IMG/VR virus record: IMGVR_UViG_3300003886_000363
Coordinates: 1-20,970 of that record
Source of the DNA: a virus
DNA length: 20,970 bases
Reading direction: 5' to 3' (one strand)
The translations under genes and the position numbers were made by a program. Positions 2,192-8,294 of the stretch are shown here, in pieces. Within the stretch, counting starts at the first letter, position 1, and each line of letters starts with the position of its first letter. Below the pieces are notes generated by a model, which worked only from the letters and a program-made list of their open reading frames with translations, had not been told where the DNA came from and did no database searches.

Positions 2192-2638
2192 ATGAGCCAA
2201 GCCAAAGCGATTCATGTATCAAAACGAACACTGGCCGGTGTCGCTGCCATTGCGCTGGTTGCCATCCTGGCTTACCGCGCGCCGGAGATCATCTTGGCGG
2301 CCAGGGGCACTGTAGCCCCTGTCGACGCGCCTGCCCCGACGGTTTCTATCGCGTCAACGGTCGAAGGCGATAGAGAGCGACAACAGCTTGCAGCGTATTG
2401 CGAGGCATGGTCGCAGGCGATGCCGCAGGTGGAAGACTTAGGTCAATTCCGCGCGGCGAGTAAGTCTGCGGATAGGGCGTTGCAAGAATCGAGCAAGCTA
2501 CCGGACCTTGCGGAGTTTGGCGAGGCCCTTCAAGCCCGAATCGAAACCGCGATTGGCGGCGAGCTTGATCCGTCACGCACTGATTTGCAGCCGATCGCCG
2601 ATGAGCTACTTCGCGTGGCAGAGGAGTTGCGAGAGTAA
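2192..2638 (+). CDS. Membrane-anchored helical protein of unknown function
   Basis: This 148-residue protein has a TAGGAG ribosome site about 9 nt before the ATG. Residues about 13-36 form one membrane anchor after a short basic N-terminus, predicting N-in topology. The rest is a polar, Ala/Glu-rich, probably helical domain outside the membrane. It sits directly before the papain-like peptidase, with the TAA and the next ATG sharing one base (TAATG). An inner-membrane spanin or a partner of the peptidase would fit this architecture and position, but no motif proves either. Confidence 0.6.
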   Translation: MSQAKAIHVSKRTLAGVAAIALVAILAYRAPEIILAARGTVAPVDAPAPTVSIASTVEGDRERQQLAAYCEAWSQAMPQVEDLGQFRAASKSADRALQESSKLPDLAEFGEALQARIETAIGGELDPSRTDLQPIADELLRVAEELRE

Positions 2639-3660
2639 TGTCCGGCCCAAAATTCCAATCATGGCAGCAGCCCGAAACCAGTTCGATTGCGGATATTATT
2701 CGCCAGTACGAACGTGGTTATCGGGGCTGCAAGTACGACCAAGAAGGATCGGAGCGGCTGGCGTCCTACGGCGCTGCTTGCGCTGAGGATGCTCTATCCA
2801 GCCTCGGATACCAGGATTCCGCTAAAGGCCAGTTGGTTATTCCATTCATCCACGTCGAAAAGGCCTATCCGCTGGCTTACCCAGGGCCAGGGCAGCAGCG
2901 CGGTAGTTGTGTTTCTCATTGCATGCGGAACGCGGCATTGATTACGATGGCCGGCGAGGTGGTGTCTGGCCTCCCCGATCCAATCAGCGGCAAACAGGAA
3001 GAGTTCCCCGAAGTCTCGCAAGTCGCCGAGAAGGCTGGCGTGCTGGCGATCGAGCCATCTTACCACCACCGCAATCATAGCGGAGACGGTTGGTGGTGCG
3101 AATCTTGTGCTGACGTGATGGTTCGCAAGACAGGTGCCGTTTTGAGGCAGGATTATGGCTTTGCGAATCTCGAAAAGCTCGACCCAGACTACGCCGGAAA
3201 ATTCTGGAAAGAATCACAAATACCGAAAGAGGTGCGAGACGCCTTTGACAACAACCGATTTTCCGACGCATCGAAAGTGACCGACCCCGGCGCAATCCGG
3301 GACTTGCTCGCACACGGCATCGGCATCGGTTCGTGTGGCAGCGAAGGATTTTCTAACGTCCGCGACGAAAACGGCGTCAGTAATCGCAAGGGCAACTGGG
3401 CTCACGCAATGGACATAATCGGTTCGGATGATCGACCAATCATCCACCGGAAATACGGTGAAATGCTTAAATTGCTTCAAAACTCTTGGGGCAAATGGAA
3501 TTCTGGACCTCGCCGGATATTGGGGACGGAAATCGACATCCCCGAAGGTTGCTTCTGGGTGCGATGGAGTGACATCAAGAGGCGTTCTTTCGTCGCGCTC
3601 GCCGGTCTCAATGGATGGGAACGAAAACTACTGCCAGATTTATCGAGAGGTTTTGTATGA
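2638..3660 (+). CDS. Papain-like (C1-type) cysteine peptidase
   Basis: This 340-residue protein carries the papain catalytic layout. QQRGSC (Gln86/87, Cys91) supplies the oxyanion Gln and the nucleophile, NWAHAMDIIG supplies His256, and LLQNSWGKW supplies Asn282 in the classic NSWG-x-W context. There is no signal peptide, so the product should stay in the cytoplasm or virion unless a holin releases it. No classical muralytic domain appears elsewhere in the window, so this peptidase occupies the endolysin position. A protein-cutting lysin would make sense if the host wall or surface layer is largely protein. That is inference; roles in virion maturation, host takeover or peptide cross-link cleavage remain open. 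The ATGA overlap with the next gene indicates one operon. Confidence 0.78.
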   Translation: MSGPKFQSWQQPETSSIADIIRQYERGYRGCKYDQEGSERLASYGAACAEDALSSLGYQDSAKGQLVIPFIHVEKAYPLAYPGPGQQRGSCVSHCMRNAALITMAGEVVSGLPDPISGKQEEFPEVSQVAEKAGVLAIEPSYHHRNHSGDGWWCESCADVMVRKTGAVLRQDYGFANLEKLDPDYAGKFWKESQIPKEVRDAFDNNRFSDASKVTDPGAIRDLLAHGIGIGSCGSEGFSNVRDENGVSNRKGNWAHAMDIIGSDDRPIIHRKYGEMLKLLQNSWGKWNSGPRRILGTEIDIPEGCFWVRWSDIKRRSFVALAGLNGWERKLLPDLSRGFV

Positions 3661-4433
3661 TGCGATTTCCATGGCCCTATGCCCTATCCGTTGCCGCTTC
3701 GATTACGATCGTCGCTTTTCTGCTTTCGCTTACAGGCTGTTCTAGTTCGCAGCCAACGCAAGATGACTACATGCCGGAGATTGCCGTTGCGATTGGTTTA
3801 TCGTCCGTACAGAAAACAGACGCACCAATTACGCCTTCCGATGAATGCGGCAACTGCGGTGGCACTGGCGTACTGGGTGACGGCACGATCGAAATGCCGT
3901 GCGGAGAATGTGGCGGCGACGGCATTTTGTCGGTCGCTGAATGCGATGACGGAATTTGCATACGGGCACCGGAAGAAAAAACCACCGAAGCCGAGGCGGA
4001 CGTTGCCGAGGATTTTATCTTGCCGACCGACGAAACTGCAAACGACGAATTGCCTGCAATCGTCGAGCCCATTGAGTCGGTCGAGCCTCCCAGCAGCGAC
4101 GTACCGCCTGCTTCGGTGGACAAACCTAAATGGATTCGCCAGACAACTATCCCGAAACAAGGCTTAGTCGTCGTGCATTACATGTTCGATGGATGCAAGC
4201 CGTGCGAGCGGATGGAAGAGAATGTGTTATCTGCGGATAGCGCAAAAGAGGCTTTGCGTGCGTTTGATTCGTGCATTGAATGGGACGTTCGCAAAAAGAG
4301 CGTTCCGGGTGTCGATTTTGTTCCAGCCGAGGCTATTTTCCTGGACGGCAAGCGTGTGTCTTTCGCCAGGGGATTCCCAACCGCCAGTGGCTATACTACG
4401 TGGCTTTCGCGCCACAATACAAAACGAAAGTAG
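3657..4433 (+). CDS. Lipoprotein with DnaJ-type CxxCGG motifs and a thioredoxin-like domain
   Basis: From ATG 3657 (ATGA overlap with the peptidase; CGAGAGG upstream) the product has 258 residues. Residues 1-28 are a lipoprotein signal ending in the lipobox LTGC with Cys28. Next come two DnaJ zinc-finger-like half repeats, CGNCGGTG (Cys64, 67) and CGECGGDG (Cys82, 85), half the usual four. An acidic Pro/Glu-rich linker (about 100-160) leads to a thioredoxin-like domain with VVVHYMFDGCKPCERM, active-site Cys180-Lys-Pro-Cys183. It should be membrane-tethered on the outside and may act in disulfide exchange or folding, perhaps on the Cys-rich proteins of this operon. The in-frame ATG at 3615 is rejected because it lies within the peptidase gene. 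Confidence 0.75.
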   Translation: MMRFPWPYALSVAASITIVAFLLSLTGCSSSQPTQDDYMPEIAVAIGLSSVQKTDAPITPSDECGNCGGTGVLGDGTIEMPCGECGGDGILSVAECDDGICIRAPEEKTTEAEADVAEDFILPTDETANDELPAIVEPIESVEPPSSDVPPASVDKPKWIRQTTIPKQGLVVVHYMFDGCKPCERMEENVLSADSAKEALRAFDSCIEWDVRKKSVPGVDFVPAEAIFLDGKRVSFARGFPTASGYTTWLSRHNTKRK

Positions 4434-4440
4434 GTGATCT

Positions 4441-4782
4441 TTGAAGTATTTGCTAAGCGCTGTTTGCTTTTTGGCAATCGCAATTGTTGCGGACGTTTCG
4501 GCGCATCGAAATATCGATGTTCCTTCGCAGCAAGAGGAAGAGAGTGAAGGCGATCAAGATGGCTGGATGCTGGCCATGAACAGCACTTCTCACGGCTCGC
4601 AAGGTTCGCAGGGTTCGTATCAACTGCACGGCGAGTCCCAAGGCTCGCATGGCACGTACGGAAGCGGCCCAGTTCGCCGGGTGTTTAAGCGACGTGCTGA
4701 GCGTCGTCAATCGCGTCGCCATGAACGGCAAGGTCGTTGGCAACATCGCCAACAGCATTCTAGTGGTGGTTCGGTAGGATAA
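4441..4782 (+). CDS. Secreted protein with Gly/Ser/His/Gln repeats and Arg-rich tail
   Basis: The start is TTG at 4441, with AGGTGATCT immediately before it matching the 16S anti-Shine-Dalgarno closely. The 113-residue product begins with a signal peptide (KYLLSAVCFLAIAIVADVSA). An acidic stretch (QQEEESEGDQD), short repeats (HGSQGSQGS, ESQGSHGTYGSG), and a strongly basic C-terminus (RRVFKRRAERRQSRRHERQ) follow. I recall similar His-Gly-Ser repeat proteins as common secreted proteins of Pirellulaceae, which supports the host guess but was not checked. It may coat or bind envelope polymers. A terminator-like hairpin follows directly. Confidence 0.6.
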   Translation: MKYLLSAVCFLAIAIVADVSAHRNIDVPSQQEEESEGDQDGWMLAMNSTSHGSQGSQGSYQLHGESQGSHGTYGSGPVRRVFKRRAERRQSRRHERQGRWQHRQQHSSGGSVG

Positions 4783-4854: not shown

Positions 4855-5181
4855 ATGTCGTCGCTAAAATCAATCACGCTTTTGGTCGCAACCTTTGTAG
4901 TTGTCCCTTCAGAATATATTTCTGATTTAGTCGGGATGTGCTTGGCTTTGCTTGGTGGAGCAGCAGCACAGATGCCCCAGATGGGGAAGCTGCCAGCCTT
5001 AGAGATTGCGGGCGAATTACTTGCTTCGGCTCTCGCCGGCTTTGTCGTCCACGCTGCTGCCTTGTCTTTTGAAAGCCCGCCAACGCAACGCATTGTTTTT
5101 GCTTCTTGCATTTGCGGGGGTTACTGCGGTGCTGAAACACTTCGGTACTTTTCTAAGGGGTTCCGCCGTGATAAAGACTGA
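4855..5181 (+). CDS. Probable holin
   Basis: From ATG 4855 (TAAGG about 8 nt upstream; an in-frame TTG at 4819 would start inside the terminator hairpin) the product has 108 residues. Three hydrophobic segments are visible at about 7-38, 48-72 and 79-93, and the tail is short and charged (KGFRRDKD). Small size, several membrane spans, a charged C-terminus and position in the late region are typical of phage holins (LydA-like type), which form membrane lesions that release cytoplasmic lysis enzymes. Holins share little sequence, so the call rests on architecture. Its last 14 nt overlap the PAS gene. Confidence 0.62.
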   Translation: MSSLKSITLLVATFVVVPSEYISDLVGMCLALLGGAAAQMPQMGKLPALEIAGELLASALAGFVVHAAALSFESPPTQRIVFASCICGGYCGAETLRYFSKGFRRDKD

Positions 5182-5611
5182 GCGACTACACCCGATATTG
5201 GTTTGGGTTGCGATCATATCGATCGTCGTCTTCGTGCCGGGCATGGCCGAGTCTTACTACACGTCGCACAAGGGCAAGCAGGACCGCAACAGACTGGTTC
5301 GGGCACTCACACAAACGCACATTGCTACGGTAGTTGCCGATGAGAAGATGGACATAATCCACCGCAACCCGAAGGCCGATGAGATTTTCGGCGTGTCCCT
5401 AGCGGGGAAGCGAATATGCGACCTAGTGCCGGAAGGGCATGGGGACGTTCACGCCGAGGGTGTCGAGCGATGGAAAGAAAAGGGTGGAGTTAGGGCAGAG
5501 CCAATCCATTGCAAAATAACCCTACCCGACGGAACAGAGCGCGACGTACAAATAGCCTTGTGGTCAACGCATTGCAATGGCGAAGTGATTTTTGTAGCGG
5601 AGATAAAGTAG
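5168..5611 (+). CDS. Membrane-anchored PAS-domain protein
   Basis: The start is GTG 5168, with AAGGGG 8 nt upstream; the longer frame from 5006 would lie inside the holin gene. The 147-residue product has one membrane span (about 9-25), a basic juxtamembrane stretch (HKGKQDRNR), then a PAS fold filling about residues 42-147. Visible PAS signatures are IATVVADEKMDIIHRNPKA, DEIFG, GKRICDLVPEGHGDVHAEG, and the late strand pair TLPDGTERDVQIAL. PAS domains sense redox state, oxygen, light or small ligands. There is no kinase, cyclase or other output domain, so the output must be through a partner. The 14-nt overlap with the holin gene suggests translational coupling and a holin-modulating role, which is inference. 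Confidence 0.75.
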   Translation: MIKTERLHPILVWVAIISIVVFVPGMAESYYTSHKGKQDRNRLVRALTQTHIATVVADEKMDIIHRNPKADEIFGVSLAGKRICDLVPEGHGDVHAEGVERWKEKGGVRAEPIHCKITLPDGTERDVQIALWSTHCNGEVIFVAEIK

Positions 5612-5612
5612 C

Positions 5613-8294
5613 ATGACACTAGCAGAAAAAAACGAGCTTCTACTCCTGAACTTATCGATGGACGAAACGTCGGGAGTCTTAGTTTCCGATTCGTCGACAA
5701 ACCGAAACGATGGGACAATGACGCCCGGTAACTTGCCGAGCGTAACCGGTGCAGATGGAAAACTTGGCCTGCGATTCAACGGCACGGACGAATACATTAA
5801 TATGGTGTTGCCCCCCGTGCCGGAAGATATTACCGCACTGACCATACTGGTCGATTTCAAGTTCGACGGTGGACCAGGAACTCGCCGAGTCATTCTTGAA
5901 ACCTCAGATAACTTTTCCCTGAGCATAGAGATAGGCACTGACCAAGACTTGAACGGAAGTTTTCGCCGGACTGGGGATGACTGCACCTTTAACGGCCCGG
6001 TCTTGGTTCAGGGCCAGCGATATAAAGTAGCGTTCGTCTATAATGGTCGGAGAATACGCGTTTATGTCGACGGTGTTTACGTCGGAAGGTCCAACGAAGG
6101 CGGTGGTGATTTGGAGTCGATGAACGGCTTGCATGTTGGCACTTTTCGCTCGGCAAATAACCGCTGGTTCGACGGCGTGATCTACGAAGTACAAATATAT
6201 CACAGCGAACTTACCGACAACGAGCTTGCCGAATACAGCGCTGGAAGCAGGAATGCCACGCTTGTCGACTACGCCATAGTCGGGGCAGCAACAAAAACAG
6301 GTGCAGTAGTCGCAGCAAAAACCAAAGTGATTTTGCCGACAAAGCTAGCCGTTTACGCCAACGAATCTCTGATTCTAGAGACAGCCGAAGTAACGCCAGA
6401 CGCTAATAATCGCGTCAAAATACCGATCACCGGCCTCGATCCGAACAAGAGATATACTGCAAGGATCATGCAGGGCGACCTAATCGACGTGCATAATGAC
6501 GTTGTATTTCGGACGCACCCCGAAGGGAACGCGAGCTTTACTTTCGCCACTTCTTCTTGTGCTTCCGGTGCGGATTTCCCCAATACAACTTCGACTTCTG
6601 ACCACCCGGTTTTTACGCACATTGCGAAAGCGGATCCGCTTTTCTTTGTCCACACGGGTGACCTGCATTACTTCGATATCGCGGTAAATAATATCTTGCT
6701 TTTCCTTGCGGCTTTTGATTCTGTAATGTCGAGCCGTAATCAGCGTGGCCTGTTTTCCATTTTGAGCTTGCTCTACATGTGGAGCGACCACGACTACGGT
6801 CCGAACAATTCTAATTCGTCTTCACCCTCCCGCCCTGCCGCTATTCAATCGTACCGCGACCTAGTACCTCACTTGCCTCTGCCAGACAGCGAGGGGATTT
6901 ACACAGACCAAATTATTGGCCGAGTTCATTTTATCTACACCGACGAACGGGCATATCGAGACACTTCTGCGGCTACAATTCTCGGCACGGTTCAGAAGCA
7001 ATGGCTCAAAGACACAATGTTAAACTCTTCGGCAGAGTTGTTTATCGTTTTCGTAGGCGTGCCGTGGATTGCACCATCAAACTTCAGCGACACGTGGGGC
7101 GGGATTGCAAACGCCGAGCGAACGGAGCTGGCAGACTTTTTCCAAGAGAATGGTTTCAATGGTAAGCTGCTTTTGGTGCATGGCGATGACCATGCTAGTG
7201 CTTATGACGACGGCACAAATAGCAATTACGCAACGAGCCCCGAAGGTAAAGGGCCGGCAGTGCTCTTGGCATCGTCTCTCGATTCCGCACCGATCATTGC
7301 GACCTACAGCGGGCCGTACAGCTCAGGAGCGAAGACGCTAGGACCCGGTCAATATAGCTTGGTTGGAATTCGAGACGACGGGGACAAAATAACAGTCACC
7401 TGCACCGGAGTTAAATTCGACGGCGTGACAGAATCGCAGACTTTTCAGCACAGCTTTTCCGTTGCGACAGAAGCCGACGTGGTGAGCGGCATTGTTGCCG
7501 ACCCTAACTTTGCGACTTTGTTTGCTGATTCGGCAGCGGCGAAGGTAATTGTCGACGACTGGACCCAAGGCGGGCGGCTGGATTTGATCGTTGATGAAGT
7601 GCTGGCTGATACTGCCGTGATGCCGGCAGCGGTTGACGCAGCTATTGCAAACAGGCTGGACGGTGTTGACCTAACGCAAGTAATCGCAGACGCAATAGCA
7701 ACCGATTGGGTGGCTGGCGATGCTTCCCCGATGGCAGTGGCCGCAGCTCTGGTAGCCAATCCGACGTTCGCCACGCTCGTTGCTGATGCGGCTGCTACTA
7801 AGGTGACCACAGACAAGCTCGACCCGCTGATTGAGCCGGGGGCTCCTGCGTTTACTGCGGTGGCTTTGGAGGGGGCTCCTACTGGGGGTGGAGGCAGTAC
7901 GGAAGGACTGGCAGAAGAAATTGTTGCGGCTATTGTTGCGGGCGAAACATTCATTCCAAACAACATGCACGTCTGGCAGTTAGCCCGCAGCACTACAGGA
8001 GTGATCGTGCGAGACAGCTTTGTAATCAAGAAAGCACCATCCGAAAAGCTTTTATGTTACGTCGACTTTTCTGCACTACTTGGCAAAGGCGAGGAGGTGA
8101 GCGAGATTTTATCGTTAGACGCATCCGGGGGAACAGTATCTGAAGTAGTTGCCAGCCGAGGGATACTTGGGAGGTTCGTCTTCGTCGAGCTCGAAGCAGG
8201 CGACGTCGGCGACAGGGCGATGGTTGATGTCATTGTTAAAACAACGCGGACGCAAGAGCTTGCCGCAACTGCGATGGCCCTCGACGTTGTCTGA
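5613..8294 (+). CDS. LamG / PhoD-like phosphoesterase / Ig-like fusion, putative enzymatic spike or fibre
   Basis: This is an 893-residue protein. Residues about 1-210 look like a LamG/concanavalin-type jelly roll (DETSGVLVSDSSTNRNDG, LRFNGTDEYI, VYVDGVYVG, FDGVIYEVQIY). A beta-rich FN3-like segment (about 210-300) precedes a PhoD-like metallophosphoesterase (about 300-605) with HTGDLHYFD (Asp350, His352), WSDHDYGPNNS (Asp392, His393, Asp394) and VHGDDHAS (Asp525/526, His527). Thus the metal-site motifs seem intact. Residues 622-745 contain two Ala/Asp-rich repeats. The last about 90 residues (FVIKKAPSEKLLCYVDFSALLGKGEEV onward, in parts) resemble the Ig-like domain found at the ends of phage fibre proteins. 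There is no signal peptide, consistent with virion assembly rather than secretion. It may bind surface glycans and cleave phosphate esters or phosphodiesters on the host surface. Confidence 0.72.
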   Translation: MTLAEKNELLLLNLSMDETSGVLVSDSSTNRNDGTMTPGNLPSVTGADGKLGLRFNGTDEYINMVLPPVPEDITALTILVDFKFDGGPGTRRVILETSDNFSLSIEIGTDQDLNGSFRRTGDDCTFNGPVLVQGQRYKVAFVYNGRRIRVYVDGVYVGRSNEGGGDLESMNGLHVGTFRSANNRWFDGVIYEVQIYHSELTDNELAEYSAGSRNATLVDYAIVGAATKTGAVVAAKTKVILPTKLAVYANESLILETAEVTPDANNRVKIPITGLDPNKRYTARIMQGDLIDVHNDVVFRTHPEGNASFTFATSSCASGADFPNTTSTSDHPVFTHIAKADPLFFVHTGDLHYFDIAVNNILLFLAAFDSVMSSRNQRGLFSILSLLYMWSDHDYGPNNSNSSSPSRPAAIQSYRDLVPHLPLPDSEGIYTDQIIGRVHFIYTDERAYRDTSAATILGTVQKQWLKDTMLNSSAELFIVFVGVPWIAPSNFSDTWGGIANAERTELADFFQENGFNGKLLLVHGDDHASAYDDGTNSNYATSPEGKGPAVLLASSLDSAPIIATYSGPYSSGAKTLGPGQYSLVGIRDDGDKITVTCTGVKFDGVTESQTFQHSFSVATEADVVSGIVADPNFATLFADSAAAKVIVDDWTQGGRLDLIVDEVLADTAVMPAAVDAAIANRLDGVDLTQVIADAIATDWVAGDASPMAVAAALVANPTFATLVADAAATKVTTDKLDPLIEPGAPAFTAVALEGAPTGGGGSTEGLAEEIVAAIVAGETFIPNNMHVWQLARSTTGVIVRDSFVIKKAPSEKLLCYVDFSALLGKGEEVSEILSLDASGGTVSEVVASRGILGRFVFVELEAGDVGDRAMVDVIVKTTRTQELAATAMALDVV

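Follow-up and report, generated by a model that had tools for sequence, protein, structure and literature searches.

A PAS gene overlaps a holin-like gene in a probable planctomycete phage fragment

The window analysed here is a 20,970-b virus fragment from IMG/VR and carries two tailed-phage markers, a gpA-type terminase and a Mu gpT-like capsid protein. Since the closest terminase among the genomes searched lies on a Planctomycetales contig (L083, 33%) and the papain-like gene of the window is common to prophage-like loci in Planctomycetota, the host of this phage is probably a planctomycete. A plus-strand gene at 4855–5181 encodes a LydA/holin superfamily III-like protein of 108 aa with two TM segments by hydropathy. 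The product matched the 'holin' profiles phrog_6384/785 (E 4–6e-5) and, below cut-off, Phage_holin_3_3 (PF16083, E 0.009), making it a likely but not certain holin. A survey of 392 Planctomycetota genomes for PF16083 returned nothing above cut-off.

The last 14 nt of the holin-like gene (5168–5181) are shared with a second plus-strand gene, here called TM-PAS, which encodes 147 aa at 5168–5611 and starts at a GTG. A Shine–Dalgarno-like TAAGGGG (5154–5160) stands 7 nt ahead of this start, and the overlap likely couples translation of TM-PAS to that of the holin-like gene. Downstream, the TM-PAS stop falls 1 nt ahead of ATG 5613, the start of a LamG and PhoD-like phosphatase fusion gene (5613–8294, plus strand) whose product is probably tail-associated and which forms the downstream border. 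Scored by the window's own codon usage, the TM-PAS frame ranked top among the six frames. The protein has a single transmembrane segment at residues 9–27 (5192–5248; mean KD hydropathy 2.41) and a PAS domain at residues 41–147 (5288–5608), running from A-beta (53–57) to I-beta (139–146), with no output domain after it. These results bear out the initial annotation of the locus, which had described a single membrane span plus a PAS-like domain lacking any output domain, translated from a GTG within the last 14 nt of the holin-like gene. Because two K/R residues precede the TM segment and four follow it, a cytoplasmic PAS domain is weakly favoured; the cytoplasm is where haem-PAS proteins work.

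The protein adopts a predicted PAS fold of the FixL/DosP haem lineage

The initial annotation had also called the PAS-like domain complete and named an HMM search and structure prediction as checks, and both agreed with it. TIGR00229 (sensory_box) matched the TM-PAS protein at E 6.7e-8 and 32.7 bits, above its curated cut-off of 22.9 bits, and PAS models were the sole Pfam matches, all below gathering (E 0.003). An HMM iterated with Planctomycetota kinase PAS domains spans the full domain, a partly circular result given that the window sequence was the seed. A single-sequence AF2 model was too poor to use (pLDDT 40) and was discarded. With a five-row MSA of the window protein and four phage relatives, AF2 returned the complete order of PAS elements, with pLDDT about 75–89 across most of the PAS core and 56–61 at residues 91–110. 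In a Foldseek search of the PDB, DosP was the top match (E 7.6e-8), FG214 and FixL were close behind, and many PAS chains matched with a probability of 1.00. With VIA-align, the Z values for PAS chains reached 11.7 and came from several PAS classes, DosP scoring 10.9. As these scores are high across several classes, the models make the PAS fold secure, and the subclass is read from sequence.

Every phmmer match of the TM-PAS protein in the PDB was a DosP haem-PAS. A profile built from the five phage proteins matched FixL at 3e-24, FG214 at 7e-24 and DosP at 5e-16; the best 14 distinct sequences were all FixL/FG214/DosP haem-PAS, followed by a gap to 1e-6. By these searches, TM-PAS belongs to the FixL/DosP/FG214 haem-b PAS group, a more specific placement than the PAS domain of the initial annotation.

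Alignments place His95 (codon 5450–5452) in the register of the haem proximal ligand, that is, DosP His77, FixL His200 and FG214 His156 (numbering partly from PMC4263535 and PMC13060918). Within the FixL/DosP PAS cluster, haem binding depends primarily on the F-alpha histidine, which about 60% of members have (PMC10468136). The F-alpha proximal histidine of FixL/DosP-type PAS domains is present in TM-PAS as His95 and invariant in the alignment, being kept in five of five FixL-type phage copies, four of which were found by a motif that contains it. Within an ungapped stretch, Arg101 (codon 5468–5470) falls in the register of FixL Arg206, a haem-propionate contact, and Arg109 keeps the register of DosP Arg91.

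The pocket residues, which the initial annotation had singled out for inspection, were only in part those of the known sensors: the proximal His95 is kept, but in the register alignment the distal gas-binding residues of DosP (Met95/Arg97) or FixL (Arg220) are not. Ile113 and Cys115 take the places of Met95 and Arg97, and Cys115, at +20 from His95, is also in the Arg220 register. His114, at +19 (His114 and Cys115 codons, 5507–5512), aligns with the distal His175 of FG214 in a register made uncertain by a nearby two-residue gap; His175 and His156 are the haem ligands of FG214 (PMC13060918). Because the distal residues are unnecessary for haem binding, Ile113 and Cys115 count against a FixL-like O2 site and not against haem. 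We consider it fairly probable that TM-PAS binds haem b; the alignment does not support a FixL-like O2 site, and one may reasonably guess at a six-coordinate haem that switches with redox state.

TM-PAS therefore resembles FixL and DosP (EcDOS) in its PAS fold, in its best sequence and structure matches and in the proximal His register, but differs at the distal positions, has no kinase or phosphodiesterase output and is phage-encoded beside a holin. It likewise shares the haem-PAS lineage of the HTH-PAS redox switch FG214 (profile E 7e-24) and possibly its histidine at +19, whereas FG214 is a soluble transcription factor (PMC13060918).

FixL-type PAS genes occur among the lysis genes of other phages

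No sequence relative of the window PAS turned up in the viral contigs, the cultured-phage records, 43 records of related phages, the Planctomycetota prophage loci or 13 further Planctomycetota loci searched; weak partial matches in L036, L037, L040 and L041 covered about residues 94–141 only. The closest relatives in the Planctomycetota genomes searched were PAS domains of large multi-domain proteins, including kinases, at no more than 36% identity. A canonical FixL-type PAS, taken from a host kinase, matched none of 50,697 phage records, and at that sensitivity this type is essentially absent from them. Because the window protein had no close relative in anything searched, we scanned 2.9 million viral contigs with a nucleotide pattern that encodes the F-alpha motif MPER[YF]RxxH. 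The scan gave 13 viral matches, four of them in PAS domains, each the sole PAS found on its contig.

For three of these four PAS genes, a recognised endolysin or holin is encoded no more than a few kb away, and the fourth (L308) lies among small membrane proteins, one of them weakly holin-like. In L315, the PAS start overlaps the stop of a VanY-type endolysin gene in ATGA, and the PAS gene is followed by an overlapping ORF for a tail-anchored coiled-coil protein (871–1089; weak XhlA match; phrog_1103, E 8e-5) and further TM ORFs. In L314, the PAS gene, an overlapping tail-anchored coiled-coil ORF (2793–3035) and a holin gene (phrog_9752, E 3e-7) follow one another, with a lysozyme-like ORF about 3 kb beyond. 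In L313, the gene for a 3-TM+PAS fusion sits in a series of small TM genes, with an Amidase_2 endolysin encoded about 3 kb upstream. L308 is the weakest case: no endolysin was recognised on it, and its PAS gene lies between small TM ORFs, the next of which overlaps it and encodes a tail-anchored protein of 122 aa with a sub-threshold match to Phage_holin_10 (E 0.0065). The PAS proteins of L308, L314 and L315 have no convincing TM segment of their own, and the overlapping tail-anchored proteins could serve as membrane anchor or partner of these soluble PAS domains.

If PAS genes were placed uniformly, their proximity to lysis genes within a 7-kb lysis window would have p ~8e-5 for the four contigs and 5e-4 without L308, figures that we take as an indication and not a test because both the width of the lysis window and the neighbour calls were settled once the data had been seen. 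The initial annotation had proposed co-occurrence with holins elsewhere as a test; co-occurrence with lysis genes was found in unrelated phages, though in a small sample.

Two further features of these contigs were noted. The ORFs that overlap the PAS genes of L308 (2040–2408), L314 and L315 all encode coiled coils with a C-terminal TM segment, and phrog_1103, a family of unknown function, matches those of both L308 (E 0.015) and L315 (8e-5). In L313, 3450–4283 and 4795–5268 encode two 3-TM proteins of similar pattern; one ends in a PAS domain, the other, encoded upstream of it, has none, and the two possibly go back to duplication of a holin-like protein with gain of a PAS domain.

A structural parallel in Cellulophaga phages

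A fold search of predicted viral structures (BFVD) recovered two Cellulophaga phage proteins; going by record and length, these are phi18:3 gp090 (172 aa) and phi19:1 gp108 (240 aa). In phi18:3, a multi-TM ORF and then the annotated endolysin gp092 come after gp090, and in phi19:1 the gene for gp108 overlaps the holin-like gp107 (weakly PF16083-like, E 0.049), with the lysozyme gp113 1.5 kb on. A homologue in phi38:2, gp11, overlaps an annotated L-alanoyl-D-glutamate peptidase (endolysin) gene, and one in Ingeline comes after a 2-TM holin-like ORF; the family is found across several phage families. Like TM-PAS, gp090, gp108 and gp11 combine an N-terminal basic/TM stretch with a PAS-like fold beside holin-like or endolysin genes. 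Unlike TM-PAS, they lack the MPERxxxxH motif, and, because the N-terminal side of the family is strongly basic, the PAS-like domain is probably periplasmic, at least in some members. As no sequence relation of these proteins or their holins to the window types was detected, homology was dropped in favour of a structural parallel. By these models, phages other than that of the window also carry a membrane-tethered PAS-like fold in a lysis module, with no homology implied.

A putative haem-PAS sensor of the lysis cassette

TM-PAS may be a membrane haem-PAS sensor of the lysis cassette that tunes when the neighbouring holin fires, a reading to which we give an even chance. The PAS domain, in the cytoplasm, would bind haem b, and a redox or ligand change at the haem (O2/NO/CO, or Fe3+/Fe2+) would alter the dimer state or shape of the domain. 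The altered state would be relayed through a short helix to the adjacent TM segment, changing how this segment meets the co-translated holin within the membrane and thereby holding back or releasing hole formation, by inhibition or promotion. The output is proposed to be a protein–protein contact because there is no enzymatic output domain. Direct gating of the holin, or an antiholin-like action, is a serious candidate to which we assign somewhat less than an even chance. Consistent with the sensor reading are the TM helix, the FixL/DosP-type PAS, His95, the overlap with the holin-like gene and the haem-type PAS genes among the lysis genes of unrelated phages; the motif matches are few, the neighbours were judged post hoc, some neighbour annotations are weak and the endolysin of the window was not recognised. 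More broadly, and more tentatively, several unrelated phage lineages may have independently placed haem-PAS or PAS-like sensors in their lysis cassettes, so that host oxygen or redox state gates holin firing, with the anchor in cis (the window, L313) or perhaps in trans (L308, L314, L315).

Alternatively, TM-PAS might be a second holin or a partner of the holin, its PAS domain binding no ligand and serving for dimerisation or as a scaffold that sets oligomer size, like the soluble domain of T4 holin T, with no sensing. Dimers are common among PAS folds, the histidine is missing from about 40% of the FixL/DosP cluster (PMC10468136), the distal haem residues are replaced in the window PAS, and the Cellulophaga proteins indicate that a PAS-like domain without the haem histidine of MPERxxxxH does occur in a lysis setting. 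The histidine is nevertheless present in all five FixL-type phage copies, even if four were retrieved through it, and we regard a ligand-free scaffold as rather unlikely.

Two explanations would detach the gene from lysis. As a moron, TM-PAS would pair its membrane PAS with the PAS of a host FixL-like kinase and blunt host oxygen or redox signalling, its place beside the holin reflecting incidental late expression. Its closest relatives in the Planctomycetota genomes searched, at no more than 36% identity, are indeed PAS domains of large multi-domain proteins, and phages do carry signalling proteins, such as VqmA of phage VP882 (PMC8284805); the repeated siting among lysis genes in unrelated phages (p ~8e-5, or 5e-4 without the weakest case, both post hoc) argues against it, and we judge it improbable. 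That TM-PAS is a neutral or decaying fragment of an acquired sensor kinase would fit the same low identity to kinase PAS domains and the failure to find relatives in the viral contigs, phage records and Planctomycetota loci. The frame is intact, however, has a Shine–Dalgarno sequence, scores as coding and is closely flanked by genes on either side, the motif residues are kept and other phages offer parallel cases, leaving this explanation very improbable.

Comparison with known lysis regulators

The initial annotation had suggested a sensory antiholin or lysis-timing regulator. Of that interpretation, the PAS fold, the membrane anchor, the absence of an output domain and the co-occurrence with lysis genes hold, but no similarity was found to LydB of phage P1, the one antiholin known with this gene arrangement. 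The layout recalls LydA/LydB of phage P1, in which a holin superfamily III-like gene is likewise followed by an overlapping gene for 147 aa. Neither protein has sequence similarity to its P1 counterpart, LydB and TM-PAS giving no alignment at E<=100; LydB has its own Pfam family, PF16084, which was not among the Pfam matches of TM-PAS, and has no TM segment (PMC9025707). A relationship to LydB was therefore rejected and the shared layout and length taken as coincidental, there being no similarity.

The antiholin RI and holin T of phage T4 offer a functional likeness, a soluble sensory or binding domain at the membrane that controls holin firing. RI, which is periplasmic and reports superinfection, establishes that such a domain can gate a holin, but no PAS is named in that account (PMC11413866). 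In phage VP882, VqmA likewise ties a phage-encoded PAS protein to the lysis decision; it is a PAS transcription factor for an autoinducer that acts on lysogeny/lysis (PMC8284805) and is not known as a holin neighbour. The open full-text papers searched included none that links PAS domains to holins or lysis cassettes. What is new here is the haem-PAS lineage with its ligand histidine, together with the finding that such genes recur among lysis genes.

How a phage times lysis has been worked out in detail for few model systems; in T4, superinfection is the known signal. Our results suggest, short of proof, that in some phages the physiology of the host sets the time of cell burst. If so, a gas/redox sensor fold in lysis modules would link lysis time to host respiration or oxygen and define a class of environment-sensing lysis timers, a single histidine would provide a testable molecular handle, and oxygen-dependent latent periods would be predicted in environmental phages.

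Other genes of the window

The papain-like (C1) protein encoded at 2638–3660 (plus strand) is named by no Pfam family and was recognised from its Cys91/His256/Asn282-SWG pattern as a candidate lytic peptidase. The gene is also found in Planctomycetota prophage-like loci (L083, L090 and others), and the protein is a possible endolysin or head/tail peptidase of these phages. Adjoining it, 3615–4433 encodes a lipoprotein-like, weakly thioredoxin-like protein with a zinc-finger-like stretch, CGNCGGTG; in L294 a similar gene also comes after the papain-like gene. A lipid desaturase (PF10520, E 4e-40) is encoded at 1618–2166 of this phage genome and might modify host membrane lipids. Finally, the product of 4441–4782 is secreted-like, is rich in His, Gly and Ser and weakly matches HxsA4, a His-Xaa-Ser repeat protein (NF038313, E 0.004).
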